From assembly GCA_938084585.1 (NCBI GenBank), contig CALKFF010000033.1, positions 1-64,000 on the forward strand: a stretch of DNA of 64,000 nt, in the 5' to 3' direction. The position numbers and the translations under genes were made by a program. The notes under the pieces are model-generated. The model was not told the DNA's origin, searched no databases, and was given only the letters and a program-made list of their open reading frames with translations. The DNA comes from an uncultured Flavobacteriales bacterium (lineage in GTDB: Bacteria > Bacteroidota > Bacteroidia > Flavobacteriales_D > Sanyastnellaceae). Numbering within the stretch: position 1 is the stretch's first letter; every line of letters starts with the position of its first letter. Below, one piece after another: positions 3,301 through 64,000 of the stretch.

Positions 3301-3356
3301 GGTTGAGTGCCGTGCTCGAATTGAAAGGACTTCAGAACAGAACACCCAAGCCATGA
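318..3356 (+). CDS. TonB-dependent receptor with N-terminal carboxypeptidase-like regulatory domain
   Basis: Signal peptide, VNGVVEDALTGDPLIGAYVKSGNAVVATDFDGVFSM (CarboxypepD_reg-like), plug region LPLVLNTTPGVYATQQGGGDGDARVTIRGFDQTNLAVMVDGVPMNDMENGWVYW, long beta-barrel; start may be ATG at 333. Confidence 0.92.
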   Translation: MSRIRMNLMKHWGLALVALFLSLTAHAQLCTVNGVVEDALTGDPLIGAYVKSGNAVVATDFDGVFSMAVPKGEATIEVSYIGYESQSRQVKCGGADTSVRFRMETLIMKEAVVSADVVISRKTPVAFTNVLPAQIQEELAGRDLPLVLNTTPGVYATQQGGGDGDARVTIRGFDQTNLAVMVDGVPMNDMENGWVYWSNWAGLDLVVRTTQVQRGLGASKLAIPSVGGTINILTGGDESANGSINYQSEIGSYGYFRNSLSGVFGNQDKGFLHFVGSYKTNQGFADGLESEAYAYYLKGRKTVGNHNLSFTTFGAPQRHGQRSYQMQVYEYDQALAQELTDEDGQAELQGVVDGLSETAILNSGRGFNEFMVNYEEVYYNYNEETGQVDTTYGAVRRYNPRQNQYFKPIVTVRDVWSLSDKSTLTTTAYASFGSGGGEALASTPGTRLEDGTIDMQGTWNSHQLFEFGPNGLNVDENGERKGSNFIRIAHNDHRWFGALSNFNSALNDKWTLSAGVDARHYTGSHYRTIGDMFGADYYDAPDDRRDQNSDFDAPLRTGDKYYYHDDGQVAWGGSYFQLELDKYNYSAFVNVSGAQSWYRAIDYFRPNVVTLNDTTYEVRSTDEYRVLGETEWQTDTTFLTADHEGLANYTTDWERLNSATIKAGGNYNFNEWVNAYTNVGYLNRAPLFNSVFDINNNVIEGYENQYVKAVEAGVKFSKGKFASNVNAYRTGWENKPVNRFYGVSGLWNDPTLSVYADTSTVAGREAMIALAESNASAEEWNAVALSVIDDVDRNLGYNLLNADAVHSGIEWDFAYDPTAKFNVQGVVSAGNWRWTSNERVDLVNRTTNAFVTRVADQSIADTLVNLDGVKVGDAAQRQISLAASFRPKRGTYFSIRNTWFWQHYARFSPGDVITEGEPKDVWVTPGYALLNFNAGTSFDVSDNALLRLRLSVTNALDVLYVSDATNNSQYAPNPYGLEGGSGRAEVFVGPPRMVRLSAVLELKGLQNRTPKP

Positions 3357-5551
3357 ATTTGAAACTGACCTTGGCCCTTGCGGCCTCCTTCGCCGCCTTC
3401 ACTTCGATGGCGCAAGAGAACATTCTCGACATGCGCGAGAATTACAACATCGGACAAACCGTGACGGTCACCGGTGTGGTGACAAGCGACGACAATCTTG
3501 GGTCGGTGCGCTACTTGCAAGACGCCACCGCGGGCATCGCACTTTACCCAGGCCAGGACTGGTCTGCATGGGACGCGACCCCGCAGATTGGCGACAGCTT
3601 GAGCGTGACCGGGGAAATCACCGAATACAACGGGTTGTTGGAAGTGGGCCCCAACCTCACTGCTGTGGAGTTCTTTGGCGCGGGCACCGTGCCTGAGCCG
3701 CTTGAGACCACGCCTGCGCAGATGGGCGAGAACTTGGAAGGACAGCTCGTGCGTGTGAATGGCGTGACGTTTCCCTTGGCGGGCACGTTCATCACAGGCA
3801 ACAATACCTACGATTTCACCGCGTCTGGGGAGACTGGCGTCATTTACGTGCGCACCAGCAACAGCTTGGTGGGTGAAGAATTGACCGGCTGCGAAGTGGA
3901 CATGTTGGGCATCGTCTCCCAGTTTTCGTTCGACGGATTTGGCGGCTATCAGTTGCTCCCACGCGGCCCGTTGGACTTGATTCCCGCGTCGGCGTTGTGC
4001 TTCACCTCTCCGGTGATGCAGTCGAACATGGCCACCACCAGTTTCACCTTGTCGTGGACCACAGACTTGGCGTGCGACGGGGTCATTGAATATGGATTGA
4101 CCGAATCCCTGGGCGAAGTGGCCATGGGCGGCACCAACACCCCAAGCCACGAAGCCAACCTCACTGGTCTGGAGCCAGGTTCGATTGTCTACGCGCGTGC
4201 CGTGTGCACCTTGGCGGACGGTTCCGAAGCGGCCTCCAGCATTCGTCCTTACGCGACGGTGTCGGAGAGCTCCGGAGACATTCACGTGTACTTCAACGGC
4301 CCAGTCGACCACAGTGTGGCCACCGATGAGCTTGCGCTGTCGTTGGGCACAGACATGAACGACACCGTGGCCGCGTGGATCACAAGCGCCCAGCACACGT
4401 TGGATGTGGCGGCGTACAACTTCAACGACCAAACCCTCCAGGAAGCGTTCAACACGGCCGCGGCGAACGGCGTGCAGATCCGCTGGATTTACGAGGGCCA
4501 AAACGCCAACATCGGCCTGTCCAGCTTGGACGACGCCATTGTCACCCACCCCCGGACCGACGGGGAGGGGAGTGGCATGCACAACAAGTTCATTGTTGGC
4601 GACGCCGACCATGCCGACAAGGCGTTCGTCTTGACCGGTTCCACCAACCTCACCACGGGCCAGCTCGTGAGCGACCTCAACAACGTGATTGTGTTGGAGG
4701 ACCAAAGCTTGGCCCGGGCGTACGAGCTCGAGTTCGAGGAGATGTGGGGTGCCGAGGGCATGGAGCCCAACGCGGCCAACGCCAAGTTTGGCCCGGACAA
4801 GACCTGGAACACCCCGGTCGACTTTGTCGTGGGGGGCAGCCCTGTGGAGCTCTACTTCTCTCCGTCGGACGGCACCACCGCCGCCATTCAAGCCCAGATT
4901 GAAGGCGCCAACTCGGACTTCGAGTTTGCCTTGTTGACCATGACGCGCGACGATTTGGGAGACGCCATCGTCGAGTTGAACCAAAGCTTCTTCGTCAGTC
5001 CCATCGGGGTCATCGAGCAGGTCAACGTGACCGGCAGCGAGTTCGACAACATGATCGGCAACGGGGTGCAGGTGTACGCGCACGAGCCCAGCGGAGACTG
5101 CCACCACAAATACGCCATCGTGGACCACGGCGACGTGGACTCTGACCCGACGGTGATCACCGGTTCGCACAACTGGTCGTCGAGTGCGGAAAACGTCAAC
5201 GACGAGAACACTTTGTTCGTCCACGACGCCCGTGTGGCCAACCTGTACCATCAAGAGTTCCGCGCCATCGTGAATGCAGTGACCGGCAACGTGGACGGCC
5301 TGTCGGATGTGGGCGAACCCACTTGGAGCCTTATGCCCAACCCGGCCCGTGAGCAGGCGTGGTTGCAGGGCGTGCAGGCCACAGACGTGGTTCGTGTCTT
5401 GGACGCGGGTGGCCGTGTCGTGGACGTCGAGCAGGTCCGTCAAGGCGGTGCTGTGCAGCTGGAGCTCGGACGTTTGACAGCCGGCATGTACCACGTGACC
5501 GTGACGTCGACCAACGGCGTGACGACGTCGGGCCGCTTGGCCGTGCAGTAA
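3353..5551 (+). CDS. Secreted phospholipase D-superfamily protein (probable nuclease): N-terminal OB-like domain, FN3-like domain, two HKD motifs, T9SS C-terminal domain
   Basis: HNKFIVGD...TGSTNLT and HHKYAIVD...TGSHNWS (two HxKx4D motifs); C-term LMPNPAREQAWLQ...LTAGMYHVTVTSTNGVTTSGRLAVQ. Confidence 0.85.
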   Translation: MNLKLTLALAASFAAFTSMAQENILDMRENYNIGQTVTVTGVVTSDDNLGSVRYLQDATAGIALYPGQDWSAWDATPQIGDSLSVTGEITEYNGLLEVGPNLTAVEFFGAGTVPEPLETTPAQMGENLEGQLVRVNGVTFPLAGTFITGNNTYDFTASGETGVIYVRTSNSLVGEELTGCEVDMLGIVSQFSFDGFGGYQLLPRGPLDLIPASALCFTSPVMQSNMATTSFTLSWTTDLACDGVIEYGLTESLGEVAMGGTNTPSHEANLTGLEPGSIVYARAVCTLADGSEAASSIRPYATVSESSGDIHVYFNGPVDHSVATDELALSLGTDMNDTVAAWITSAQHTLDVAAYNFNDQTLQEAFNTAAANGVQIRWIYEGQNANIGLSSLDDAIVTHPRTDGEGSGMHNKFIVGDADHADKAFVLTGSTNLTTGQLVSDLNNVIVLEDQSLARAYELEFEEMWGAEGMEPNAANAKFGPDKTWNTPVDFVVGGSPVELYFSPSDGTTAAIQAQIEGANSDFEFALLTMTRDDLGDAIVELNQSFFVSPIGVIEQVNVTGSEFDNMIGNGVQVYAHEPSGDCHHKYAIVDHGDVDSDPTVITGSHNWSSSAENVNDENTLFVHDARVANLYHQEFRAIVNAVTGNVDGLSDVGEPTWSLMPNPAREQAWLQGVQATDVVRVLDAGGRVVDVEQVRQGGAVQLELGRLTAGMYHVTVTSTNGVTTSGRLAVQ

Positions 5552-5605
5552 AGCACACCTGGCCTTGACGAGGGAATCCCTGGTCGTGTGATGTACCTTC
5601 ATCGC

Positions 5606-6808
5606 ATGCCCAGGGATTTTTTCATGACACTGCTTGCGTCGACGTGGCTCGTCCTGGGGGTGTTTGGGCTTTGGTCGGAAGCGTGGTCCCAATGCGACGG
5701 CCAGCGTTATCGCTACCGCATGTTTGAAGAGGTGGAGGTGACCAGCGACGTGCTTTACGGCAGCAACATCGGGGCGTCGGGGGTGAATGAAGAACTCTTC
5801 ATGGACGTGTATCGTCCTGCAGGAGACACGCACACGAGCCGCCCCGTGGTTGTGCTTGCGCACGGCGGCTTCTTTTTGGCGGGCAGCAAGGAAGGCACCG
5901 ACGTGGTGCCCCTGTGCGAAGACCTGGCTCGCATGGGGTACGTCGCGGTGTCCATCTCATACCGCCTCGGCATCGATGATTTGTTCAGCCTGGAGGTGTC
6001 TTTGCTGGAGGCGGTGATGCGTGGCGTGCAAGACGCCAAAGGCGCCATTCGGCATTTGCGAAAGTCCCATGCCGAGGAGGGCAATCCCTGGGGCATCGAC
6101 CCGAGCCGCGTGGTGTTGGGCGGCTCTTCGGCCGGGGCCTTCATCGCCCTGCATTCGGCGTACATCGACGACTTGGACGAGGTGCCTGACGCCATTGATT
6201 TGACCCAACCTGGGCTTCAAGGAGGCTTGGAAGGGCTTTCCGGAAGCCCAGGGTATTCTTCCGAGGTGTTGTCCATTGTCAACCTCTGCGGGGCCATGGG
6301 AGATGCAGGATGGATGGAGGTGGGAGACGCCCCGGTGGTGAGTGTCCACGGCACGGCCGACGAGACGGTGCCGTTTGGGACGGGCTTTGTCCAGCTGCTG
6401 GGGCTGCCAGTGAGCCAAGTGGACGGATCGTGGCCCGTGCACTTGCAAGCTGAAGCGCTCGGTTTGGACCATGCCATCACGTTGTTGGAAGGGGAGGGGC
6501 ACGTGCCTCACATGTCCGACGCCGGCGCCTACGACCTCACACGCGCCGCAGTCACCTCCTTCACAAGCCGCCAAGTGTGTCCGTCTTACCCAGACATCCC
6601 GGCCTACTACGACGTGGATGCGCCGCCGGCCGTGGGGTGCTTGGGAGACATCGTGGCCAATGGCTCAGTGGGGGTGGAGGACTTGTTGCTTCTGTTGTCA
6701 GAATTTGGATGCACCGCAGGTTGCGAAGGCGACGTGGATGGGGACGGTGCGGTGAGCGTGGCGGACGTACTTGCCCTGCTCGGGGTGTTTGGAACTCCTT
6801 GTCTCTGA
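5606..6808 (+). CDS. Secreted alpha/beta hydrolase (carboxylesterase/lipase-like) with C-terminal dockerin-like tail
   Basis: VVVLAHGGFFLAGS oxyanion region, GGSSAGAF nucleophile elbow, HGTADETVPF, GEGHVPHMS; tail GDVDGDGAVSVADVLALLGVFGTPCL. Start set at ATG 5606, 12 nt after TACCTTCA. Confidence 0.83.
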   Translation: MPRDFFMTLLASTWLVLGVFGLWSEAWSQCDGQRYRYRMFEEVEVTSDVLYGSNIGASGVNEELFMDVYRPAGDTHTSRPVVVLAHGGFFLAGSKEGTDVVPLCEDLARMGYVAVSISYRLGIDDLFSLEVSLLEAVMRGVQDAKGAIRHLRKSHAEEGNPWGIDPSRVVLGGSSAGAFIALHSAYIDDLDEVPDAIDLTQPGLQGGLEGLSGSPGYSSEVLSIVNLCGAMGDAGWMEVGDAPVVSVHGTADETVPFGTGFVQLLGLPVSQVDGSWPVHLQAEALGLDHAITLLEGEGHVPHMSDAGAYDLTRAAVTSFTSRQVCPSYPDIPAYYDVDAPPAVGCLGDIVANGSVGVEDLLLLLSEFGCTAGCEGDVDGDGAVSVADVLALLGVFGTPCL

Positions 6809-6845
6809 GCGCGGCGAGGGCTGTCCCTTGGGTTATCCTTGTTTC

Positions 6846-8615
6846 ATGTTGAGCACCTTGGACTGGGGCATTGTTGCCGCCTATTTCGCCTTGGCGCTGG
6901 GGGTTGGTCTGTGGGCCAGCAAACAGGCCAAATCCGACGCCGCTGGTTATTTCCTCGCCGGCCGAAACATGCCCTGGTGGCTCCTCGGGGTCAGCATGGT
7001 GGCCACGACCTTCAGCACGGACACCCCCAACTTGGTCACCGATTTGGTTCGCCAACAAGGGGTGTCGGGCAATTGGGCGTGGTGGGCCTTCTTGTTGACT
7101 GGCATGGTGACGGTGTTCGTGTACGCCCGCCTGTGGAGGCGGTCCGGGGTCTTGACGGACATCAGTTTTTACGAATTGCGGTACGGTGGACGTCCCGCCG
7201 CGTTTTTGCGGGGCTTCAGGGCTCTGTACCTCGGGTTGGTGTTCAACGTGTTGGTCATGGCGACCGTCAGTTTGGCCGCCATCAAACTCGGCGGCATTTT
7301 GCTGGGATGGCCCGGCTGGCTCACCTTGTTGGTGACGTGCAGCATCACCTTGGCGTACAGCGTACTCGGAGGGTTGCGCGCGGTGATCCTCACCGATTTC
7401 GTGCAATTCATCCTGGCGATGGTCGGGTCGGTCTGGGCCGCCTCCTGGATCCTGGGCTTGCCCGAGGTGGGCGGCCTGGAAGGTCTGTTGAGCCATCCCG
7501 ACGTGCAGCCCAAACTGGCCATGCTCCCCGACTTGTCCGACCCGGATGCTTGGATTCCCATGCTGCTCATTCCCTTGGCGGTCCAATGGTGGTCCAGCTA
7601 CTACCCGGGCGCGGAACCTGGAGGGGGAGGCTACATCGCGCAGCGCATGTTTTCCGCGAAGGACGAAGGCCACGCCGTGGGCGCCACGTTGCTGTTCAAT
7701 GTGGCCCATTACGCCCTTCGCCCCTGGCCATGGATCGTGGTGGCTTTGGCGTCCATTGTCGTCTTCCCCGATTTGGATGCCTTGCGGCAGGCGTTTCCGG
7801 CCATCGCCGAGGACAAGGTCGGACACGACCTGGCGTACCCCGCGATGCTGTCGTTGCTCCCATCGGGCTTGTTGGGCCTGGTGGCGGCCTCCTTGTTGGC
7901 GGCCTTCATGAGCACCATGAGCACCCAATTGAATTTGGGGGCCAGTTATCTGGTGCACGATTTCTACGGCAGGTTCATCCGCCCGGACGCTTCGGAGCGC
8001 CAGCGGGTGGTGGCGGGGCACGTGGCCACTGGGGTTTCGCTGGTGATTGGCGCCGGCTTGGGCCTCACCCTCACCGACGCAGGACAGGCGTTCAATTTGT
8101 TGCTGTTGCTGGGGGCGGGGACAGGCGGGCTGTTTTTGCTCCGCTGGTTCTGGTGGCGCATTTCCGCCTGGACGGAGGTGGCGGCCATGCTCATCTCGCT
8201 GGTGGTGGCGGCGTATTTCACTTGGGGCCACGACGCCTGGACAGACGTGGCCCTTGCGCCATGGGAGAAGTTGATGTGGGGCACGGGCATCACCACAGCA
8301 GGTTGGCTTCTCAGTGCGTTTTGTCTTCCCCACGAATCCCCAGAAGTGTTGCGGGCGTTTGTCCAGCGCACGGGGGTCGGTGGCCCAGGTTGGTCCCGCT
8401 TTGCCGACGGATCCTCGGCCCCTGAAGCGACCTCGCCTCCCGTGTCCCGCGGCTTGCTCCAGGCCTTCTTGGGGTCCGTCGCCGTGTATGCCGCATTGCT
8501 GGCCACCGGTTCCGGCTTGTATGGCGATTCCACCGTGGCCGTCGCCCTGGCGGTGTTGGCAGGAATCGCGGGCTGGGGCGTGTTGAAACTCCAAACCCTG
8601 ACCCATGCAAGTTGA
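6846..8615 (+). CDS. Sodium:solute symporter family transporter
   Basis: Polytopic; LGVGLWASKQAKSDAAGYFLAGRNMPWWLLGVSMVATTFSTDTPNLVTDLV typical of SSS family. ATG 6846 lies 12 nt after TATCCTTG. Confidence 0.88.
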   Translation: MLSTLDWGIVAAYFALALGVGLWASKQAKSDAAGYFLAGRNMPWWLLGVSMVATTFSTDTPNLVTDLVRQQGVSGNWAWWAFLLTGMVTVFVYARLWRRSGVLTDISFYELRYGGRPAAFLRGFRALYLGLVFNVLVMATVSLAAIKLGGILLGWPGWLTLLVTCSITLAYSVLGGLRAVILTDFVQFILAMVGSVWAASWILGLPEVGGLEGLLSHPDVQPKLAMLPDLSDPDAWIPMLLIPLAVQWWSSYYPGAEPGGGGYIAQRMFSAKDEGHAVGATLLFNVAHYALRPWPWIVVALASIVVFPDLDALRQAFPAIAEDKVGHDLAYPAMLSLLPSGLLGLVAASLLAAFMSTMSTQLNLGASYLVHDFYGRFIRPDASERQRVVAGHVATGVSLVIGAGLGLTLTDAGQAFNLLLLLGAGTGGLFLLRWFWWRISAWTEVAAMLISLVVAAYFTWGHDAWTDVALAPWEKLMWGTGITTAGWLLSAFCLPHESPEVLRAFVQRTGVGGPGWSRFADGSSAPEATSPPVSRGLLQAFLGSVAVYAALLATGSGLYGDSTVAVALAVLAGIAGWGVLKLQTLTHAS

Positions 8616-9300
8616 AATCTGCGCCAGCACCCTCCGCGACGTCGCCGTTGCCATGGAAGTGGGGGCCGACCGTGTGGAGTTGTGCAGCGTCTGGACCGCT
8701 GGTGGACTCACCCCGAGCGCCGTGCTGGTGCAATCTGCCGTGGCGATGGGCATGCCTGTCCGGGCCTTGGTTCGGCCGCGTGAAGGCCACTTCGTGTGGT
8801 CCAACTCCGAGCGAACGTGGAGTGTGGAGGAGGCCAAGCTCATGCTCGATTGTGGCGCCGAAGCCGTGGTGGTGGGCGGGCTCAACGAGGAGGGGACCTT
8901 GGACGAGGCCTACCTCGAGGCGTTGTGCCGGGCCGTGGGGCCGGAGCGTGTGGTTTGGCACCGCGCGATTGACGTCAGCCAAGAACCTGAAGCCGACGTG
9001 GACAAGTTGTTGGACGCCGGGGTGACGTCTGTGCTCTCCAGTGGGGGATGCGCCCGCGCCGTGGAAGGCCTGCCTCGATTGGCCCAATGGGCCCGGCAGG
9101 GCTTGCAGGTCGTCGCAGGCGGAGGCGTCCAACCCGAGGACGTCGAGGCCATGGCGGCCGCCCAACTCAGTGCCGTGCACGCCTCGTGCAGGGTCACCTT
9201 GCGGGAAGGCCATTCGCCGTTGTTCGACTCGGCCACCCACCCCGTCGACGTGGACAAGGCGGTGGCGTTGATGGAGGCGGCTGAACCCTTTTTGTCATGA
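8605..9300 (+). CDS. cutC: Copper homeostasis protein CutC-like
   Basis: MQVEICASTLRDVAVAMEVGADRVELCSVWTAGGLTPS; HRAIDVSQEP; LSSGGCARAVEGL. Confidence 0.9.
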   Translation: MQVEICASTLRDVAVAMEVGADRVELCSVWTAGGLTPSAVLVQSAVAMGMPVRALVRPREGHFVWSNSERTWSVEEAKLMLDCGAEAVVVGGLNEEGTLDEAYLEALCRAVGPERVVWHRAIDVSQEPEADVDKLLDAGVTSVLSSGGCARAVEGLPRLAQWARQGLQVVAGGGVQPEDVEAMAAAQLSAVHASCRVTLREGHSPLFDSATHPVDVDKAVALMEAAEPFLS

Positions 9301-11582
9301 GGTTGGGGCTTGGACTGGCGCTGGCGTTCGTCTTGGGCCTTTGGACCGGATGCGCCTCCCCGCAAGTGCACGGGTTGCCCCAGGGCTCAACCTCTGGGCT
9401 CGTGCCCTTGCCAGCCTCGCTGGAACTTCGTGACGAAGACAGTCAGGGACGGGGCTTTCGAACCGACGGGGTATTGAAGGTGTCTTGGCCGGAGCCATGG
9501 GGCATGAAGCCGATGGAGGCGTGGTTGACCCACGCCGGCTTGGCGTGGTCGAGAACCGATCCCGACGACGCGGATGTGCTGTGGTCCCGCACGGACCAAC
9601 CCCTCGGCCCCGAAGGCTACACACTGACGGTGGAACACGACCGAATCGTGGCCGAAGCGCAAGATGCGGAGGGGGCGTTTCGCGCCTGGACGACGCTTCG
9701 GCAGTTGATGCCGGCAGTGTGCGAACAAGGCTGTCCACAAGGGTTTGAGCTTCCTTCGGTGGCCATCCAAGACAGCGCGTTCCTCGCGCACCGGGGGCTG
9801 TTGCTGGACTGTTGTCGGCATTTCATGGCGCCGTCCTTTGTCAAGGACATGATCGACGCTTTGGCGCTTCAGAAAATGAACGTGCTGCATTGGCACTTGA
9901 CCGAGGACCAGGGATGGAGGTTGCCCATCGAAGCGTACCCCAAACTCACGGAGGTGGGCGGATTCCGAACCGAGGCCGACGGCACGGTTCATGGCGGCGC
10001 TTACACCAAACAAGACATCGCCGACATCGTCGCCTACGCGGCGGAGCGACACGTGACGGTCGTGCCGGAGGTGGAACTGCCCGGCCACAGCCGGGCGGCC
10101 TTGGCCGCCTACCCCTGGCTGGGCTGCACGGGCGACATCTTGCCCGTGCCCCACAATTGGGGGGTGTTCAAGGACGTGTATTGCGCCGGCAACGACAGCA
10201 CGATGGCGTTCCTGAAAGCGGTGCTGGACGAGACCTGCGAGATGTTTCCGTCGGAGGTCATCCACATTGGTGGAGATGAAGTGCCCAAGGTGCGTTGGGC
10301 GGAATGCCCCAAGTGCCAGGCCAAAATGGCGGAGCTGGGCCTCCAAACCGAAGCGGAACTCCAAACCTATTTCATCAATGAAGTCGGCGCCCACCTTGCC
10401 CGCAAAGGCCGTCGCATCATGGGATGGGATGAAATCCTGGAGGGTGGCCTGCCGGAGGGGGCCATGGTGCAGTCTTGGCGTGGCATGGAAGGCGCGGTGG
10501 AAGCGACGCACTTGGGCACGGACGCGGTGGTGTCCCCCACCAGCCATTGCTACCTCGATTACCCGTTGCGGTCCACGGACCTGGAGGAAGCGTACAGCTT
10601 TGTCCCTGTGCCTGAGGAGGCCCTGGGCCACAAAGGCCAAATCGTCGGCGGCGAATGCAACATGTGGTCGGAGCACGCACCACAGGACCTGGTCATGTCC
10701 AAGGTCTTTCCAAGGGCCACCGGGCTGGCCGAAGTGTTTTGGTCCGGTCCTGCCGTCACCCAGCAACCTGGGGCGTACGATGCGTTTTTGGTCCGGCTTG
10801 ACGCGTTGTCGCAACGCTGGGATTTCTTGGGTGTCACGCCAGGGCTGGAGGGGGTGCCGGTGGCGGTTGACGTGCAGCCAGACACCCAGGGCCAAGTCGC
10901 GGTCACGGTGCGCCCCGCCATCCGCAACGCAGGCGGCATGGTGACCTTTAAGCGAGAGGGCGGAGGCCTCGTGAACGAACTGCTTCAAGGCCGTGTGGGA
11001 GAGACCCTTCGGGTGTCGGGCGTTGGAACCCTCGACGTGGATGTGGCGATGCGGGGAAGGAAGACCGGGGTGGTGGAGCGCTTTCCCGTGGCGGGCCACC
11101 TCGGTGCCCACCGTCCCTTGGACCTCAGTTACGAGCCAAGCGTGCATTACACCGGCGGCGGCCCCCAAGCCATGGCCGACGGCCGTCGGGGCAGTGTGGA
11201 TTTCAGGGACGGCGCCTGGCAAGCGGTGCAAGGCCAAGACATGATGGTGACGGTGGATTTGGGTGAGCCCACGGTGCTGGAATCGGTGCAGGTGCAGTGT
11301 TACCTCTACCAGGACGCCTGGATTTTCCTGCCCCAAGAGGTGCGCTGGGAGGTGTCCCAGGATGGCGTCAACTTCGACGTGTTGGGTCAGTCCCAACAGG
11401 ACGACGCCCTGGCGCCCGACGGCCGCCAAACCGTGGTGCCAATTGCGTTGGACGTCGCAGGGGTTGAAGCTCGGTTCGTCCGGTTGACTTTGGTGAACGC
11501 CGGGGTGTGTCCCCCTTGGCACGACGCCGCAACGGAGCCCTCGTGGTTGTTCGCGGACGAACTGGTTGTGTTGGGTCGCTGA
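9297..11582 (+). CDS. Beta-N-acetylhexosaminidase (GH20), probable lipoprotein
   Basis: WHLTEDQGWRLPIEAYPKL, VVPEVELPGHSRAALAAYPWLGC, VIHIGGDEVPKVRW (catalytic D-E), ATGLAEVFWS; N-terminal lipobox-like LWTGCASP. Confidence 0.93.
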   Translation: MRLGLGLALAFVLGLWTGCASPQVHGLPQGSTSGLVPLPASLELRDEDSQGRGFRTDGVLKVSWPEPWGMKPMEAWLTHAGLAWSRTDPDDADVLWSRTDQPLGPEGYTLTVEHDRIVAEAQDAEGAFRAWTTLRQLMPAVCEQGCPQGFELPSVAIQDSAFLAHRGLLLDCCRHFMAPSFVKDMIDALALQKMNVLHWHLTEDQGWRLPIEAYPKLTEVGGFRTEADGTVHGGAYTKQDIADIVAYAAERHVTVVPEVELPGHSRAALAAYPWLGCTGDILPVPHNWGVFKDVYCAGNDSTMAFLKAVLDETCEMFPSEVIHIGGDEVPKVRWAECPKCQAKMAELGLQTEAELQTYFINEVGAHLARKGRRIMGWDEILEGGLPEGAMVQSWRGMEGAVEATHLGTDAVVSPTSHCYLDYPLRSTDLEEAYSFVPVPEEALGHKGQIVGGECNMWSEHAPQDLVMSKVFPRATGLAEVFWSGPAVTQQPGAYDAFLVRLDALSQRWDFLGVTPGLEGVPVAVDVQPDTQGQVAVTVRPAIRNAGGMVTFKREGGGLVNELLQGRVGETLRVSGVGTLDVDVAMRGRKTGVVERFPVAGHLGAHRPLDLSYEPSVHYTGGGPQAMADGRRGSVDFRDGAWQAVQGQDMMVTVDLGEPTVLESVQVQCYLYQDAWIFLPQEVRWEVSQDGVNFDVLGQSQQDDALAPDGRQTVVPIALDVAGVEARFVRLTLVNAGVCPPWHDAATEPSWLFADELVVLGR

Positions 11583-11604
11583 GGATTGTCGTATTTTTAT
11601 GTGC

Positions 11605-14145
11605 GTGAGAATGCACCTTGATCCAATGAAGTCCCTTTCGCTTGCCCTTCGCCGCGTGGTTTCCCTGTGTGGGGCCTTGGCGCTGCTGTCCCACGTTTGT
11701 GCCCAAACCCCCATCGTCTTGGACCCGCCTCCTGGCACCTTGGATGGGGTGAACATTTTGGACGACAACACGGCCATCGTGCAATTGCGCGCGCCGGGCA
11801 AATCGTACGTTCACCTTCGTGGCGACTTCAACAACTTCGTGATCAACAACAGTTCCCTGATGCGGAAGAGCACCGACGGGAACCTGCACTGGATGCAGTT
11901 GAGCAACTTGAATCCGGACGTCCAGTACCGCTATCACTTCTTGTGCGACGGAAACTTGGAAATCGGAGACCCCTATGGCACGCTGGTGCTCGACCCGTGG
12001 GAGGACCAGTACATCTCCACCTCCACCTATCCTGACATGCCACCGTACCCCACGGGGCAGGCCAATTGGCAGCAGACCGTGTTCCAAACGGTGGAGCCTG
12101 AGTTTGGTTGGACAGACCAAAATTTCCAACGCCCGCCGTCCGACCGCCTCATCATTTATGAAACGTTGGTGCGCGATTTCGACGAGACCCAGACGTTTCA
12201 GGACGTCATCGACCGGTTGGATTACTTGCAATACATGGGGTTCAACGCCATCGAGCTCATGCCGGTGAGCGAGTTTGAGGGCAACCTGAGCTGGGGCTAC
12301 AACCCGACTTACCGTTTTGCGGTCGACAAGTTTTACGGCACGAAAGAGAAGCTGAAAGAACTGGTGAACGAGTGCCACAACCGGGGCATTGCGGTCATCC
12401 TCGACATCGTCCCCAACCACGGCTACGGCACCGATCCGTTGGCCCGGCTCTACTTGGACGGTGATGGAAGCATCGCGGCGAACAACCCGTGGTTCAACGA
12501 AACGGCACGCCACCCCTTCAGCCCGGGGTACGACTACGACCACGGGGATCCGTGGACGAAGGAATTCTGGAAGCGCGTCTTCGACTTTTGGATCGACGAA
12601 TTCCACGTGGACGGCTACCGGGTCGACCTCAGCAAGGGCTTGACCCAAACCAACTCAGGCAGCAACGTGGGGTATTGGTCCCAGTACGACCAAAGCCGGG
12701 TGGACATCCTCTTCGATTACGGCACCCACATCTGGAACAACCACCCAGGGTCCTACGTGATTTTGGAACACCTCGGCAACAACGATGAAGAAACGGTGCT
12801 CGCCGACGGTGGGTTCATGCTTTGGGGCAAGATGACCCAGCAGTACACCGAATCGGCCATGGGCTACGACGGCGACATCAACTACGGCTCTTGGCAAAAC
12901 CGAGGTTGGAATTGGCCCAACCTGGTCACGTACGCCGAAAGCCACGACGAGGAGCGTGCGGCGTTCAGCCTGACTTCGTACGGCAACGCGTCCGGCGATT
13001 ACGACACCAAGCAAGAGGCCACGGCCATGGACCGTTTGGAGATGATGCACGCCTTTTTGCTGGCCATCCCCGGGCCCAAGATGATGTGGAACTGGGGTGA
13101 AATCGGGTACCAAATCAGCATCTTCGATTGCCTGAATGGCACATTTGAAGAGGGCTGCAAGCTCAACGAGAAGCCCGCACCATGGGAAGATTTGGAGAAT
13201 GAACACCGGGTGGGCTTGGCCAAGACCATCGCGGCGCTCAACCACTTGAAGAAGACCCAGCCGGTGTTTGGGACGTACGACTTCAATGTGGACGGCAGCG
13301 GCAAAGGCAAGCGCATCCACTTGTACTCGGCAGACCAAAACGCAGTCCTCGTGGGCAACTTCGACATCATTCCCATGGACATCGTGCCTGGGTTCCCTTA
13401 CACCGGCACGTGGTACGACCACTTCACAGGCGAAGAAATCGCGGTGAACGAATTGGGCAACGCCTGGTACCTCCAACCCGGAGAATGGCGTCTGCTGATG
13501 GACACCCCGCTTCCCACGCCCGACACCGACGGATCGACTCCCATTGTGACCAACGTGGGGTGCATGGACGAGGCCGCGCAGAACTACGACCCGTCGGCGG
13601 AGGCCGACAACGGTTCGTGCATGTACGTCACCACATTTGAGCTCGGCCTTGGCGACGTGGAGGCGTCGCCGCTCGGCGTGCACGTGGCGGGCTCGTTCCA
13701 AGGGTGGAACCCTGGCGGCACCGCCATGGAACTGGGTGAGGACAGCTTGTACAGGGCATCTTTCGTGGCCGTGCAAGGCGACGTGGTGCAGTACAAATTC
13801 ATCAACGGCAACGATTGGGGCGAGGATGAAGGCGTTCCTGCCGAATGCGGTGCCCCCAACGGTTTTGGCGGGTACAACCGTGAACTCACGGTCGGCAGCG
13901 CAGACGCCGTCGTTCCTGCCGTGTGCTTTGGCACCTGCGAGAGTTGCGGAGGCTCGGTCACGCCAAGTGGATGTTCGGACGGAGATTGTTGCGGCGAAGG
14001 CACCGTATGGGACGCCGCCTCAGGCACGTGCGTGGGGGACGGCACTGCAGCTTCCAATTGCCCCGAGGACCTCAACGGCGACGGCGCAGTGTCCGTGGCA
14101 GATGTCCTTCAAATGCTGGGCGCCTTCGGCGAAGTATGCGAATGA
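11605..14145 (+). CDS. Secreted GH13 alpha-amylase-family protein with N-terminal E-set (CBM48-like), one GCxxxAxNYDPxAxxDNGSC repeat, a C-terminal starch-binding-like domain and dockerin-like tail
   Basis: VDGYRVDLSKG, VILEHLGNNDE, YAESHDEERAAF (GH13 catalytic triad regions); tail CPEDLNGDGAVSVADVLQMLGAFGEVCE. Start uncertain: GTG 11605 or ATG 11611/11626. Confidence 0.88.
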   Translation: MRMHLDPMKSLSLALRRVVSLCGALALLSHVCAQTPIVLDPPPGTLDGVNILDDNTAIVQLRAPGKSYVHLRGDFNNFVINNSSLMRKSTDGNLHWMQLSNLNPDVQYRYHFLCDGNLEIGDPYGTLVLDPWEDQYISTSTYPDMPPYPTGQANWQQTVFQTVEPEFGWTDQNFQRPPSDRLIIYETLVRDFDETQTFQDVIDRLDYLQYMGFNAIELMPVSEFEGNLSWGYNPTYRFAVDKFYGTKEKLKELVNECHNRGIAVILDIVPNHGYGTDPLARLYLDGDGSIAANNPWFNETARHPFSPGYDYDHGDPWTKEFWKRVFDFWIDEFHVDGYRVDLSKGLTQTNSGSNVGYWSQYDQSRVDILFDYGTHIWNNHPGSYVILEHLGNNDEETVLADGGFMLWGKMTQQYTESAMGYDGDINYGSWQNRGWNWPNLVTYAESHDEERAAFSLTSYGNASGDYDTKQEATAMDRLEMMHAFLLAIPGPKMMWNWGEIGYQISIFDCLNGTFEEGCKLNEKPAPWEDLENEHRVGLAKTIAALNHLKKTQPVFGTYDFNVDGSGKGKRIHLYSADQNAVLVGNFDIIPMDIVPGFPYTGTWYDHFTGEEIAVNELGNAWYLQPGEWRLLMDTPLPTPDTDGSTPIVTNVGCMDEAAQNYDPSAEADNGSCMYVTTFELGLGDVEASPLGVHVAGSFQGWNPGGTAMELGEDSLYRASFVAVQGDVVQYKFINGNDWGEDEGVPAECGAPNGFGGYNRELTVGSADAVVPAVCFGTCESCGGSVTPSGCSDGDCCGEGTVWDAASGTCVGDGTAASNCPEDLNGDGAVSVADVLQMLGAFGEVCE

Positions 14146-14164
14146 GGTGAGGCAGACTTCGGAT

Positions 14165-15805
14165 TCAATCGCAGCCCGTGCCAAACACCGACAAGAAGAG
14201 CAACAAGTCTGAGCTGGCGCATACGCCGTCTCCGTCCAAATCACCAACGACCCCTTCTTCGCCATATCCGCTCAGCATTTCGAGCAGGTCGGCGGAGGTC
14301 CGCGCGGCGTCGTAGTCGAAATCGGCCAGGCAATTTGTGGGCTGCCACAATTCGTGAAGGGCGTCGACTTCCAAGTCGTGGTAAGTGTTCATGTCGCCGT
14401 TGGGCCAGCGCACGACAAGCGAGTCCACCGACGTCAATTCACCAAGTCCCCAGTGCAGGTTGAGGGTGCTCGCCCCAGAGTAGCCCTGGCCAATGTTGAC
14501 TTCGTCCATGTGGGCGGTGCCGCTGTGATGAAGGGTGGCCCTGGCGCCCACGGCGTCGCGGTTGTCTAGCGTGCCCACCAGTTTGACTTGCATCCAGTGG
14601 CCTTCGGACGCGTCGTTTCGCAACAAGGCCAACCCCGGCTGGGTCGACGATTTGGTGGTGGCCACGATGAGGTCCAAATCCCCATCTTGGTCGAAGTCCG
14701 CCATCGCCAGGCCGTAGTCTGAATAGGGGTGCTCCAAGGCGAAGTTGCCCTCACTCACGGGGGTGAAGGTGCCGTCGCCGTTGCCGTGGTACATGATGTT
14801 GGGCAAGGGAGCGAAGAGGTAGTCGTTCACGATGTACAGGTCCCAATGCCCGTCGTGGTCGTAGTCGAAAAAGACGCACCCCCAGGTCATCCCTGAATCG
14901 TTGGTCCCCGAGGACACGCTGATGTCGTCGAACGTTCCGTCCCCGTTGTTCATGAACATGGCGCTGGGGTAGAGGTCCGTGATGTACAGGTCCAAGTGGC
15001 CGTCGTGGTTGATGTCTGCGACGTCCACACCCATGCAATTGCCTTGGTAGTTCAGCCCCGCCATGAAGGCCAAATTCAAGAACGTGCCGTTCCCTTGGTT
15101 GCGGTAAAGCTTGTTGGTTTGGTTGGCGTCGTGGGTCAAGTAGAGGTCTTGGTCTCCGTCGTTGTCGTAGTCGAAGAAGATGCTCCCCATGCCGACGCCC
15201 GTGTCGAAGGTGCCCGTGGCGCCATACACGTTGGTGAAGCCGTTCCCTCCGTCGTTGCGGTAGAAATGGTTCACCGCGTTGATGTTGACCACGTACAGGT
15301 CGGTGAAGCCGTCGTTGTTGTAGTCCGCCGCGTGCAGGCTTCGGCACATCAACGCGCTGTTGAGGCCGTACGCCTCGGCCATGTCGACGAAGGTGCCGTC
15401 TCCTTGGTTGACGTAGAATCGGTTCGGCGCAGGGTCGCTTCCTCCAAAGCCGTTGCCCGTGGCCAAATCGAGGTCTCCGTCGTTGTCGAAATCGAACCAG
15501 ATCGCCGCATTGGTGAATCCTTCGTCCGCCACCCCGGCTTCTTCTGCAACATTGGTAAACGTCATGTCGCCGTTGTTGCGGTACAAGCTGTTGGGCTGGA
15601 ATTTCGTGCCGACGTAGATGTCCTCGTCTCCATCGCCGTCGTAGTCGCCCACGGCCACACAGTGGTGTTGGCCTTCCGCGTCAAGTCCCGCTGCGGCGCC
15701 CACGTCCACAAACGTGGGGGGAGTTTGGCCCCAGGCAGAGTCCGCTGCCAAGACGGCCAGCCCGAACGACATCAAAAGAACTGAAAAGTGTGCCTTGCGC
15801 CTCAT
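14165..15805 (-). CDS. Secreted FG-GAP/VCBS repeat protein with ASPIC/UnbV-like domain and dockerin-like tail
   Basis: Repeated DYDGDGDEDIYV / DFDNDGDLDLATG motifs; HWMQVKLVGTLDNRDAVGARATL...VRWPNGD; tail GDLDGDGVCASSDLLLFLSVFGTGCD. Start ATG at 15805 (MRRKAHFSVLLMS signal). Confidence 0.88.
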   Translation of the reverse strand: MRRKAHFSVLLMSFGLAVLAADSAWGQTPPTFVDVGAAAGLDAEGQHHCVAVGDYDGDGDEDIYVGTKFQPNSLYRNNGDMTFTNVAEEAGVADEGFTNAAIWFDFDNDGDLDLATGNGFGGSDPAPNRFYVNQGDGTFVDMAEAYGLNSALMCRSLHAADYNNDGFTDLYVVNINAVNHFYRNDGGNGFTNVYGATGTFDTGVGMGSIFFDYDNDGDQDLYLTHDANQTNKLYRNQGNGTFLNLAFMAGLNYQGNCMGVDVADINHDGHLDLYITDLYPSAMFMNNGDGTFDDISVSSGTNDSGMTWGCVFFDYDHDGHWDLYIVNDYLFAPLPNIMYHGNGDGTFTPVSEGNFALEHPYSDYGLAMADFDQDGDLDLIVATTKSSTQPGLALLRNDASEGHWMQVKLVGTLDNRDAVGARATLHHSGTAHMDEVNIGQGYSGASTLNLHWGLGELTSVDSLVVRWPNGDMNTYHDLEVDALHELWQPTNCLADFDYDAARTSADLLEMLSGYGEEGVVGDLDGDGVCASSDLLLFLSVFGTGCD

Positions 15806-15911
15806 GACTTCGAAAGGTACAACCGTTGGAAATGTGGGCAACTTGGGGTTTGCTGTGGATGACTCCAGCAAGCGCATGAGGCCCGACGTCAAGCCGACCT
15901 GGTATGTTTGC

Positions 15912-51875: not shown

Positions 51876-54800
51876 TCAGCGAATCATTTGGATGTGACCC
51901 GTGTAGATGATGGCGCCGCGTCCACCTTTCTTTTTGATGGCAATGCGCCACGCAAACACTTCACCTCCGCTGCTGTAGTGCAACCCTTCGCCCGTCACGG
52001 CGTTGCTGCCGTCCCAAGCTTCATTCGGGTCTTCGCTGTAGAAGAGAACGTGGTTGCTGCGGTTCATGATGTGACACTCGTAGCTGGCGATGAGGTCCTG
52101 ACCAATGATGGAAGGTGCCCAAGCGTCGTTGAGGCCGTCGTTGTTGGGGGTGAATGCGTTGGGGGCATACACGTAGAGGTCCGTGGTCACGTCGATCGAC
52201 TGGCTGTGCACGTCGGTGCAGCCAAATTCGTTCACCACCAACAGTTGGGTGTTGTACGTCCCTGGGCGCGCATACTCGACAGAGGGGTGTTCCTCGGCGG
52301 AGCCTTCTCCGTTGCCAAAGGACCAAATGTATTCGACGGCACCGGTGGACATGTTTTCGAAGTCCACCACAGGATCCACAAATTCCACCACCGTATCCGG
52401 CAGCACTTCAAACAAGGCCACCGGTGGTGTGCGGCCTTCAAAGGCCTGCTCGTACGTGGTGTCTACAGCGCACACCACCACATGCTCTCCCACCGTGTAG
52501 GTGTTGGACACCGTGAAGTCCGCGTCGTAGTACCCTGGGTATTCCACGTTCAGTTCGAGCGGCGACAAGAAATCGTCGTACGTCGGGAAGCCTGGAATGG
52601 ACATGCTGAAGTTGGCAGCCCCGGCAGAAGAATTCAGCACCGACACCGTGGTCGGCAAACAAATGCTCTCTTGCAAGAAGGTCAATTCAGGACGCGGCAG
52701 TCCGCGAACCACGAAGGGCTGAGCAGGGCTTGTTTGGCTGCAGCCGTGGGTGTTCTCCACCTCGATGACGATTTCCACAGCGCCTTCCTTGTCCAAGCAA
52801 ATGGAGGGCATGATTTGGTCTGCATCTTCAACGGTGAAGTCCGTGATGTCCAAATCGTCCAGCGGCGTGACGTACCAGTTGAAGGACAGGCTGTCGTCCT
52901 CGCAGAAGTTGTACATCCCAAGGTCGTGGGACAGGGGGATGCAATTGCCTTCCGCGGTGTCCAGACACGCCTGAGGTGCGTCGATGGCAAAGGCGGGCTC
53001 CGGGGTGGGGTTCACCGTGATGGAGTCCACCAAACGGTTGGTGCAGAACAAGGTTCCGTCCGGACCCAAGTCGTGCGCAAACCTCACCACAACAGCCATG
53101 GAGTCCAACCGTGGACAGGGGCTGGGGTTGGTGTAGTTGTTGCACGCGCTGTTGATGGGGCTGGGTGCGGCGTTCCCGAAGATGTATTCCACGCCGGTGT
53201 TGAATGGCAGACCTTCATTCAGGAGGCCCACCTCGGCACAACCTTGCGCAGGGGAACATACCTCTTCAGGGAGGCCGAGGGTCCAAGCCAACACCGGAGT
53301 GGCCAAGACATCCACAGTCCATGTTTCCAAATCAGACACGCATCCTCGGTCGTCTTCCACTCGGAGTCCCACTTGCATGACCTCTGAAGGCGCCGCGCCG
53401 ACCCCCACGTTGGGGACGAGGACGGCTTGGTTGTCTGATTCAGTGGAGCTGTAGGTGTTGCCGTGGAACCACGTCGGCGTGTACACGCTCGAAGTCTCGT
53501 AATTCGTCACCTCGTAAGTCAAAGTGGCCTCTTCGCCCTGGCAAATGCCTGAGGGGCCTGTCAACGCCACCGCGGGTGCCGCAAACACCACGAAGGTGCT
53601 GTCGAATTGAGCTGAACACACCAAGCTGTCCTCCCCCTGGACGTACAGCAGAGACTTCGTGACTTCGAACACTGTGGAATCCGCAATGACTTCGAACGAC
53701 GTTTGGCTGCTTGGCACATTGTCCAATTCAAGGCCGGTGGTGGCGAAGAAGGAATACGTCGTGTTGGCGGGTGAATCGCTTTCGCTCAGGTCCAAGAAAT
53801 CCACCGTCCCACCCTCGCAGAAGACCGGCGCCACCGTGAAATCAGGGGACAAGGTGGGGAGCGCGTATTCAGAGGCTGTGGCACTCGCCGACGTGAAGCA
53901 CGACGCGAAGGTGCCTGAGCCTGGAATGATGTAGGGGATGGAACCTGAAACTTCCACCAACACGGGGGTGTCAATGCCCGACACAGTCAATTCAGAAATG
54001 TCCGTCCCTGTCGTGGCGTAACTTGAGTTGAACAGTTCGATGGGGTCCTCGAATCCATTGATGCCAAACCACGTGTAGTCGTCTGCACCTGAAGCCACCC
54101 ATGTGACCGTGTCGCCGTCGCACGCCAATTCCGTCTCAAGGTTTATGACTGGGAACTCCAGCGCGTACACCGTTTGTGTGGACGGCAAGGACACGCAGCC
54201 GTAGCTGTCGGTCACCACCAAGCTGACGTTCTGGTCGTGAATGCCGTCGATGGACGGTTCGTACGCCGCTGGGAACGAAACGCTGCTCGAAGGGGCATCG
54301 CTTGACACCATCTCGTTGAACGTGCTGGTGTTCCAATCCCATTCCCAAGTCAGCCCATTGCCTGCCAATGAATCGGCCCCTGTGGCGAGTGCAGCTTCGA
54401 CTTGAACGCTCGTGCCGTCGCACGCCCACTCGGGGATGGTCCAATCCACGCTGGGTGTGGGCAGCACGGTGAACGACCAAGGCTGTTCCACCACACATTC
54501 AAAATCCGCTGGGGTGGAGTTGTATTCGGAATACACCACCGTGGCCACGCCGGACACGACGGTGGCCGAGGTGAGGGGCGCTTCTGGAAGCACGTCGATG
54601 AAGTAGGCGTCGTCTTCGTTGATTTGGTTGGGGTAGCCGTTGTCCACTTGCCAGAAGAAGGACTCGGTGGCGCCGTTTTGATCGACGAAAGAGTTGAGCG
54701 TCAAGTCGGCGCCTTCGCACATGACCAAGTCCCCTGCAGGGCCGCTTGTGTCGTCTCCTGTCACGTTGAATGATGGGGCCAAACGACGGGACAAGTTCAA

Positions 54801-57800
54801 GGCGTTCTCGCTCACACACGTCAACCCCACGTCTTCATATTCTATGGTGCCTAGGAAGGGGAAGGTTTGGACGGATTGGCCGCCTTGGGCGACGAGGTAG
54901 TCCGGCGGCAGGGTGACTTCAAATTGGCCAGCGCCGTTGACTCCCCACACCACATCTTCCAGCCCGTTTTGCCCCAACGTTGTCAAGGTTTCAGGACCTG
55001 TGATGGCCGCGGACCATTCTTGGTCCTGGCACACGAAGGTGTTGCTGTTTTGGATGCGTGGAGCAGGGTAGATGAACACCAAATCGTCCCACGTTTGCGT
55101 GGCCACACAACCGTTGGACCCCGCGGTCAATTCGAACAACACGGGAGTGGGCTCGGTGAAGTCCGCAGCCACCACGCTGTTGATGGAAGGGGTGACGGCC
55201 AAAGAAAAGGCGTCGCCCGAGACCGGCACGTTGTTTCCATCGACGCTGGCACTCCAGGCGTAGGTGGCGTTGGCCACGTCCAAGCTGTCGTCCACATCGA
55301 TGCCGTCGAAGGTGAGCTGAATTTCCTCGCCTGAGCACACGGCGTCAGGCGTGGCGGTCAGTGCCCCGAAGGTCGGGAGTTCGTGGATGACCACGCTCAA
55401 GGTGGTGTCGGCTTGACACCCCGCCCCGTCGGTGAGGGTGAAGGTCACTTCGCCTGAGGCGGGCACGGGAATGTTTGTGTTCACGCTGATGCCGGCAGAG
55501 GCGCCTGTTTGGAACGGATTGACATTGAAGATGGGGTCGTCACCTGCGTTGCTCCAAACAAAGGAAATGGGCTGCCCGTTGCTCGACCCTTGAACCATCC
55601 CCGACGAGATTGTCACCGACTGCCCCACACAAATCTCATCAGGCACGTTGGTGTTGTTGGGGTTGATCATGGGGTTGCCCACCACGTCCAACGTCAACGT
55701 CCACGTGTCTGTGCACACGGCGCCACCGAAGTCCGAGGTGGCCAGCAATTCAAAGACAGTGTCGTCCCCAGCCTGAATGGCTGCTTCTGCCTCGGACCAG
55801 GGCATCACCCAGTCAATGGTGCCCGTGGTGGAGCTGAGTTCAATCACATCGCCGGTGTATGGGCTGAGGTACGACAACGACGACGCGCCTGAAATGGGGG
55901 CTGTCCAATCGGAGCCTTCGCACATCCGGTAGTCCAGGTTGTTGGGGACGGTGATGCGCGGTGAGGGGTACAGGCTGATTTGGTCTGGGAACGCGACTGT
56001 GCTGGCGCACACCCCGTCGGTCATGTCCAGCTCGAAGGACACCGTCACCGGGTCAAAATCTGCAGACCAAGCCTGGCTGTTGGCGAGGGAGAGGTCAATG
56101 GCTTCGTCGACAAACGGCGAGAGCTGGCTTACGGTGTAGCTCTCGTTGTTGCTTCCTGTGGCCGTCCAGATGTAGCTGAAATCGTCCAAGGTGCTGGACC
56201 CGTCCAAGGCCGGTTCGTCCATGGTCAACGTGATCAAATCCCCAGAGCAAATGGCAGAGTCAAGCTCTGAGAACATCACATTCACGGAGACAGGGGCGCT
56301 GTGGACAAACAGGGTTGTGGCCACTTGAGCCACACAACCTTCACTGTCGGTGGCCACCAAAGAGACGTTGGTGCTCGGCGTGTCGCTGCCGTCCACCAGA
56401 GAGAGGGTCAGGCTTTGGCCGCCGTTGGATTCCACGGCGTTGAAATCTTCAGCCATGTCCACGGTCCATGCGAAATCCAGTCCGCCGTTGGGGTTGAGCA
56501 GGACATCTGCCTCAAGTCCAAGGTCTCCGTTGTCGCACAACACTTGTTCCAAGGGCAAGGCCGCGATTTCTGGATTGTCGTGCACCTCCACATTCAAGGT
56601 CCAGGTGTTCTCACAGGTCAGCGTGCCAAAGTTAGACACCGCCGTGAGGTCGAACGAGGTGGGGAAGCCGACTGGATCGTTCTGGGCATGAAGCGGCCCG
56701 ATTTCACTCCATGGCATGGTCCACAACACGTCTCCCGACGCGTCGCTTGTCTCCTCGTAGGCGTCGCCGGTGAACGACCCTGTGAAGGTCAGCGAAGATG
56801 CACCGGTCAACACGCCTGTCCAATCGTCCCCAGCGCAGATGCTCAAGTCGGCGTCGCCTGAAGTGACCCTTGGCCGCGGGTAGATTTGGATGGCGTTGGT
56901 GTACGTTGTGGTGCTTGTGCACATCCCATCCGTCAAGGTCAAAGCCATGTTCACTTGACTTGGTTCCAAAGTTGGGGTCCAAGCTGCAGTGGGGATGGTC
57001 ACCCCGGTCAACAGGTCGCTCAACGGGTCTGTGGTGGGCACGGTGGGCAACACCTCGCCCGCCTCATTTGTGGCCGTCCATGTGTAGTTGTAGGCTTGAG
57101 GGTCCAACGCGGGGTCAAGTTGGGGCGCCTCCATGCTGAAGACGACACCGTCGCCAGAACAGGTTCCAACTGCGGAACCTTCCCAGCTCACCGTCCCAGG
57201 AACGGGGAGGGTCAACACGTCAAAGGACACGTCAGCTGACGTTTGGCAACCGACGGCGTCCAACACGGTCAATCCCAGGGTGCCGTTGCTCGCTGAGCTC
57301 GCCTCCGACAAGGACAAGCTCACGTCTGGGGTTCCTTGCCCTTGAAGGATGAACGAGGTCAAATCCCCGAGCTCCCAGTTGTAAGCAATGCCGCCGTTCT
57401 CATTGACGTCAAAAGCCGCCTCGAGTTCGAGGCTTCCGTCCTCGCAGAACATCAGATTCTCGTTGAAGGGAGAAAGTACAGGGTTGGCGGCCACGTTCAG
57501 CACGACAGTTTCTGTGTTCACACAAGTCCCCGCCGATCCTGTGGTGATGGCTTCCACGGCGACCTCGATGGCGCCTGCATCGCCTGTGCTCAGCGAGAGG
57601 CTGGTTCCTGTGCCCGCAGGCTGAAATCCATTTCCTCGGTCCACAGCCCAGGCGTATTCAAGGGTGGCCTCCTCACAAAGGAAGGCGTTCAGGCCCGGTC
57701 CAGACACCTCGAACTCCACCTCAGCGTCGGCACACAACACGTCAGGGAGCGCCAAGGCAAACTCAGCCACAGGCGTCACGGTCACGGGGAATGCCAACGG

Positions 57801-62865: not shown

Positions 62866-64000
62866 ATGAGACATTTTGTCGCTTCATTGGCCTTTTGTCT
62901 GGGTCTTACGATTCCTGCCTTCGCCCAATACTCGCTCACGGTAGAGAGCTCTGCTCCTGTTGGAGACGACACACCAGGCATGGTGTACCGGTTTTACGTC
63001 AACGCGGCAGACGCCTTAGACAAGTTGTCGGCGGTGTACGGAAGCGATTCGTCACCCCTCGTCATCAACACGCCGGCTGGCATTTACAATGCCCCTGCTG
63101 CTGCTGGACCGTCCGCGGAGGGTCTGTCGGACTTTTTGCTGGGCTTTTTCCCTGAAATCGCAGATGACAGCTACGCGACAGTCAACTTGATCGGCGCAGC
63201 TGCATCTTCTGGCATTGCTGGAGCTGCGGCACCTCAAGTCATTGAGGACTCTGCGTTAATCAACGGAATCACAGCCTACTTCACCGGCAGCAACGACGGG
63301 ACTTTGCTGGAAGTGAACACGCTCATTGGCGGCTCCTGGTTCTTGACTGGCGCGGCAGGCAACGCTTCCCCTGACAGCGAAGGACGCTGGTTGGTGGCCC
63401 AGGTCACCACTGAAGGCGACATTTCGGGTTCCATCAACGTCCAAATCTTCCCATTGGGAGTCCAAAGTGAGACCAACGTGGTTCGGAAGTCCTTCGATTT
63501 CACGGGCACAGGCGTGTTCGTCAACGAAGAAATCTTGGGCTGCATGGACGAGACGGCCTGCAACTACAACCCCGACGTCACAGAGGACGACGGTTCCTGC
63601 GCAGAGCTGGACGAGTGTGGGGTGTGCGCAGGCATGGGCATCCCTGAGGGGGAGTGCGATTGCGATGGCACTTTGATTGACGAGTGCGGGGTGTGCGGAG
63701 GCACCGGCATTCCTGAAGGACAATGCGATTGCGAGGGCACCTTGATCGACGCCATTGGCGTGTGTGGAGGGGATTGTCCTTCGGACGTCAATTTCAACAA
63801 CATCTGCGACGACGAGGAAGTGTACGGATGCATGATTGACTTGGCGTGCAACTACAACCCAGAAGCGACCATCAACGATTCCTCGTGTGATTTCACATCA
63901 TGCTTGGCGTTCGGTTGCAACGACGTGAGCGCGTGCAACTTCGATCCTGAAGTCAACTTCAACGACGGCAGCTGTGTGTACGCGCAGGCTCCTTACGATT
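62866..64000 (+). CDS. Paralog of the 59899-62694 protein, 3'-truncated by the window end (absent from the supplied ORF track)
   Basis: Reading from ATG 62866: MRHFVASLAFCLGLTIPAFAQYSLTVESSAPVGDDTPGMVYRFYVNAADALDKLSAVYGSD...GCMDETACNYNPDVTEDDGSC...GCMIDLACNYNPEATINDSSC...GCNDVSACNFDPEVNFNDGSC, no stop before 64000. Confidence 0.88.
   Translation, partial: MRHFVASLAFCLGLTIPAFAQYSLTVESSAPVGDDTPGMVYRFYVNAADALDKLSAVYGSDSSPLVINTPAGIYNAPAAAGPSAEGLSDFLLGFFPEIADDSYATVNLIGAAASSGIAGAAAPQVIEDSALINGITAYFTGSNDGTLLEVNTLIGGSWFLTGAAGNASPDSEGRWLVAQVTTEGDISGSINVQIFPLGVQSETNVVRKSFDFTGTGVFVNEEILGCMDETACNYNPDVTEDDGSCAELDECGVCAGMGIPEGECDCDGTLIDECGVCGGTGIPEGQCDCEGTLIDAIGVCGGDCPSDVNFNNICDDEEVYGCMIDLACNYNPEATINDSSCDFTSCLAFGCNDVSACNFDPEVNFNDGSCVYAQAPYD

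Follow-up and report, generated by a model that had tools for sequence, protein, structure and literature searches.

A dockerin-like tail closes the open reading frames (ORFs) of three unrelated proteins, namely, an esterase, a GH13 protein, and an FG-GAP/ASPIC protein, in a 64,000-nucleotide stretch of DNA from an uncultured Flavobacteriales bacterium (hereafter the window). It was found to be a genome-wide C-terminal domain, which confirms the original prediction of a tail shared by these three secreted proteins and makes the finding broader than was first seen. The explanation we favor, with a probability of roughly 0.6, is that an orphan dockerin with a disulfide clasp replaces the T9SS tail and docks exported proteins to a partner. 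Dockerins that occur as orphans, with no cohesin to bind, have long been puzzling. A single bacterial family here provides many natural exchanges between dockerins and secretion tails on the same enzymes, even inside one genome, and the function of orphan dockerins thus becomes directly testable by tail swaps.

The first of the three proteins is a secreted alpha/beta hydrolase of the BD-FAE/carboxylesterase type (ORF 5588..6808, + strand; PF20434, 1.2e-16), which has a Q-rule signal peptide (...AWSQ) and ends in ...FGTPCL before the stop codon. Its two-unit tail (6635..6805, +; 83.6 bits with the A2 profile) carries all four cysteines, C1 to C4, with codons at 6638-6640, 6710-6712, 6722-6724, and 6800-6802 (+); the span originally given for the feature, 6619-14236, starts in the tail of this gene and not at the gene start. 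The GH13 protein (ORF 11566..14145, +; PF00128, 2e-21) is secreted as well, with a signal peptide (MKSLSLALRR...HVCAQ) that starts near 11626, and ends in ...FGEVCE. Its tail, SNCPEDLNGDGAVSVADVLQMLGAFGEVCE (14053..14142, +; profile search), consists of one unit flanked by cysteines at 14059-14061 and 14137-14139, both of which are kept in 90% identical orthologues. The secreted FG-GAP/ASPIC protein (ORF 14165..15892, - strand; PF13517, 4e-50; PF07593, 2.1e-15), with a signal peptide (MRRKAHF...AWGQ) starting near 15805 and the C-terminus ...FGTGCD, has a two-unit tail (14168..14338, -) with C1 at 14330-14332 and C4 at 14171-14173, without C2 and C3, and with an extra cysteine inside the second loop. 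The penultimate cysteine is therefore present in all three ORFs, and the second, degenerate unit that had been described for two of the tails was recovered in the esterase and the ASPIC protein. Apart from the tail, no domain common to the three proteins was found in a Pfam profile search, and none of the three matched TIGR04183, TIGR04131, or CHU_C in a search for T9SS type A and B domains, in line with what had been predicted. As a comparator, the secreted phospholipase-D-like protein adjoining the esterase (3353..5551, +) carries a T9SS type A domain (TIGR04183, 29.5 bits; cut-off 23).

Judged by its profile matches, the tail is a dockerin-type domain of a kind already named by NCBI, i.e., NF041540, "GC-type dockerin domain-anchored protein"; the phrase "GC-type dockerin" itself was not found in the literature searched. 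Among 33 tails, 25 match Dockerin_1 (PF00404) and 27 match NF041540 (E<=0.01), and the best PDB match of the tail is the cellulosomal dockerin 2y3n_B (1.7e-8 over positions 3-54), so that the initial description as dockerin-like holds. Five paralogous tails, taken from this genome and placed in one alignment with the others, pass the curated NF041540 cut-off of 29 bits; the window tails reach about 25, 23, and 13 bits and are for this reason filed as relatives of the GC type, not as certified members. The tails and NF041540 agree in length, register, and extreme C-terminal position, and they differ from that family in having a T9SS-bearing Flavobacteriales family as the carrier, in the frequent one-unit form, and in the interchange with T9SS domains.

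The two-unit form reads C1-x2-[D loop]-helix-FG-C2-x3-C3-x2-[D loop]-helix-FG-x2-C4, and its two F-hand calcium loop-helix units are present in the esterase and ASPIC tails and in about 109 two-unit sampled tails. The one-unit form, mostly found downstream of Cys-rich repeats, has a cysteine on either side; the GH13 tail and other one-unit tails do not have two F-hand units, i.e., there is no classical twofold dockerin duplication. Cellulosomal type I dockerins (PF00404, 2y3n_B) likewise have two F-hand calcium loops with helices at the C-terminus of secreted enzymes, but in the present case one-unit forms are common, the clasp is probably made by cysteines and not by hydrophobic contact, no cohesin scaffold was found, and the cargo is not limited to polysaccharide degradation. 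An AlphaFold model of the esterase tail, obtained from a two-row alignment, had a pLDDT of 49 and was too poor to be used for a fold search.

A search profile built from the three window tails matches 54 places in the contigs of this genome (1.94 Mb, 78% complete), and ORF reading yielded 39 distinct proteins ending in the tail, namely, the three window proteins and 36 further ones. With E-values down to 2.6e-19 among proteins left out of profile building, the occurrence of these 36 is far beyond chance. All 39 tails end at the stop codon or within a few residues of it, and the ten bodies scanned are unrelated, including GH30, a reprolysin-like M12 peptidase, CotH, lysyl oxidase, PKD, and haloperoxidase-like types. 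By the Q-rule of Bacteroidetes, a Sec signal peptide is followed by Gln; the strict pattern occurs in 28 of the 32 tail proteins with an intact N-terminus and, among 34 other ORFs of the window, some of which may be spurious, in 4. Enrichment in signal-peptide proteins had been proposed at the outset as a check on the tail. Many one-unit tails (e.g., L046, L047, L052) follow Cys-rich repeats with the pattern GCxxxxAxNYDpxAxxDDGSC, which also occur on T9SS-domain proteins of the same genome; an example at window positions 62866-63999 has no Pfam match. One secreted protein of 375 aa (L031:6340-7464; C16:18342-19358) has a dockerin-like pair near its N-terminus and also ends in a C-terminal tail without the last cysteine.

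The original prediction regarded the penultimate cysteine as fixed and as a probable processing or attachment signal. It is fixed in the three window tails, not genome-wide: across the 39 tails of this genome, the last cysteine is followed by 0 residues in 10, by 1 in 21, by 2 in one, by 3 in three, by 5 in one, and by 8 in one, and 2 tails lack this cysteine. In a sample of 134 tails, comprising those of four genera plus orthologues, the cysteine is penultimate in 84 and there is no cysteine near the end in 13. The pattern of sortase and CTERM signals, i.e., a fixed motif, a hydrophobic segment, and a basic cluster, is absent from the tails, which end 0-8 residues after the last cysteine. As in the GlyGly-CTERM/rhombosortase system, one tail is found on many proteins whose homologues carry other functional tails, but here there is neither a transmembrane nor a basic segment and no known dedicated protease (PMC3237569).

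The way in which the cysteines vary together points to a structural role. C1 and C4 are kept or lost jointly (odds ratio 26, P=0.00033), and so are C2 and C3 (P=0.00034), in a set of 109 two-unit tails reduced to 56 at <50% identity. These tails are paralogous, which makes the clusters not fully independent, and the cysteines were assigned by an automatic procedure that allowed a shift of a few columns. The four other combinations, including the alternative pairing C1-C2/C3-C4, showed no significant association in the same 56 tails (P 0.47-1). The ASPIC protein shows this most clearly: in the window's genus its tail has C1 and C4 but neither C2 nor C3, and in the orthologues of three other genera (L193, L197, L199, L200) the tail has C2 and C3 but neither C1 nor C4. 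Two structural disulfides would be expected to leave just such a pattern of joint keeping and loss, and the final cysteine is most likely half of an intradomain disulfide clasp, paired with the cysteine before the first calcium loop. A clasp of this kind would agree with cellulosomal dockerins, in which the domain ends are also held together head to tail, there by hydrophobic contact (PMC4728124). The reading of the last cysteine as a terminal processing signal was rejected for its variable position, its loss, and its covariation with C1. The wider proposal of a sortase- or lipid-like processing or covalent attachment site could draw on the 84 of 134 tails with a penultimate cysteine and on the intermolecular disulfides that Bacteroidota outer-membrane proteins use, as described in PMC12635249, but it is very improbable given the varying number of residues after the cysteine, the 13 tails without one near the end, the coupling to C1, and a C-terminus without the hydrophobic or basic segment of CTERM signals. 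The interpretation of the tail as a non-T9SS sorting or anchoring signal was accordingly half right: a shared docking tail on exported proteins that replaces T9SS domains is supported, and cysteine processing is not.

That the genome uses T9SS, as had been stated, follows from 42 TIGR04183 matches (36 over the cut-off), from the presence of PorV-family genes, and from a single PorU match, an N-terminal fragment truncated where the contig stops (G000:C4:53493-53825), which is consistent with an incomplete assembly and not with absence of the gene. The minus strand of the window encodes, at 51876-59708, a secreted protein of 2610 aa that contains a PKD domain, ends in CHU_C (T9SS type B-like), and is possibly a large surface protein.

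Comparison of homologous and paralogous proteins places the dockerin tail in the slot of the T9SS type A domain. In other Bacteroidota, eight relatives of the GH13 protein have a T9SS-type tail at the position of its dockerin, and all four of those tested pass TIGR04183. Esterase orthologues end in a dockerin in genera g1 and g14 and in a T9SS-type tail in most other genera of the family and order, and among the ASPIC orthologues, those from several genera of family f1 end in dockerins and those from family f8 in T9SS tails; among the tails tested, TIGR04183 was found at the tail slot in homologues of all three proteins. The exchange also occurs within the genome itself, where an esterase paralogue (C2:40023-41003, 49% identity) has a T9SS-type tail at 22.9 bits (cut-off 23), a GH13 paralogue (L083, 42% identity) has a TIGR04183 tail over the cut-off, and a dockerin-bearing CotH protein shares 28% identity over 415 residues with a protein that ends in a T9SS tail. 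For other sorting tails, too, families have been reported in which homologues differ in their functional tail (PMC3237569). The two domains share the slot and differ otherwise, the type A domain (TIGR04183) being a beta-sandwich with a YPNP start and an unrelated sequence and fold; no YPNP motif was found in the last 250 residues of any tail protein.

T9SS domains are export signals too, and a docking domain alone does not explain how the tail proteins pass the outer membrane. The tail might instead be an alternative, non-beta-sandwich T9SS export signal, recognized by the translocon or by a shuttle of its own and replacing type A in both export and targeting; the common slot, seen across three protein families and among paralogues of one genome, the missing YPNP motif, and a genome with T9SS would all fit. 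We consider this unlikely, however, since the fold of the tail differs from the type A Ig-like beta-sandwich domain that PorV reads (PMC12618676), and since tail-rich small genomes have about 3 PorV-family genes versus 4-6 in most tail-poor genera, a count that covers the PorV family of shuttles. These lower numbers speak against a PorV paralogue dedicated to the tails, and no expansion of the PorV family that follows the tails was found.

In the orphan-dockerin explanation, the carrier proteins would be exported through Sec by their signal peptides, and one or two F-hand (loop-helix) units would form a putative calcium-binding GC-type dockerin at the extreme C-terminus. The last cysteine would bond with the cysteine before the first loop to give a covalent clasp that joins the domain ends, and in two-unit tails the CxxxC pair would stiffen the linker between the units, both bonds being suggested by the covariation. 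Standing in for the T9SS type A domain of its homologues, the dockerin would then dock non-covalently to a partner at the cell surface or outside the cell and retain exported enzymes and adhesin-like proteins there; calcium binding, the disulfides, and docking are here what we infer from sequence. A co-occurring cohesin, one of the checks first proposed, was sought with PF00963, which detects recognizable cohesins. None of the 11 genomes from the window's genus had a match at E<=0.01, and the few matches outside this genus do not track the tails. This result counts against the docking reading, as does the missing twofold duplication of the one-unit tails. Dockerin enzymes have been described before in a genome whose cohesin scaffold is anchored through a T9SS-type CTD, namely, in the cellulosome-like system of Ca. 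Stygibacter (Cloacimonadota), in which signal-peptide enzymes also carry C-terminal dockerins; there the cohesin scaffoldin bears the CTD, whereas the window's genus has no recognizable cohesin or scaffoldin and many more tails (PMC8542988). The lack of a cohesin partner in the genus, together with the frequent position of the tails behind other Cys-rich or MopE metal-binding repeats, would also suit a passive calcium-binding cap, stabilized by disulfides, that shields secreted or periplasmic proteins without docking to any partner. This is rather improbable, as a generic stabilizer would not explain the extreme-end position, the unrelated enzymes, the near confinement to one family, and the interchange with sorting domains.

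Among 120 relatives, the tail is present in 77, nearly all of them in family f1 (Flavobacteriales), with 1 to >54 tails per genome; the closest relatives that bear a name are unclassified Flavobacteriales MAGs, UBA7382 among them. Of 297 genomes drawn across Bacteroidota, 3 match at E<=1e-9 and two of these belong to f1, and within the sampled Bacteroidota the tail is nearly confined to this one family. Over 21 genera, the density of T9SS domains per Mb tends to fall as tails become more numerous (rho -0.46, P=0.04). The trend is rough and only suggestive, as match counts are mixed with first-look counts that are at-least values and genera are not independent. It is possible, and we propose it tentatively, that family f1 has, next to T9SS type A, another route for sorting proteins to the surface, in which dozens of exported proteins would have traded their T9SS domain for a disulfide-clasped dockerin that is captured by a receptor other than a known cohesin, perhaps already in the periplasm, and co-exported. 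The existence of tail-rich and tail-poor genera could be used to find the missing receptor by gene profiling.

At 14050-14335 of the window, the GH13 and ASPIC genes converge with their dockerin ends about 20 bp apart, forming inverted dockerin-coding sequences. Convergent tail-bearing neighbors with nearly touching dockerin ends recur elsewhere (C29:26244-26600; G008:C87, G002:C135, G010:C56), an arrangement that may bear on how the tails spread.
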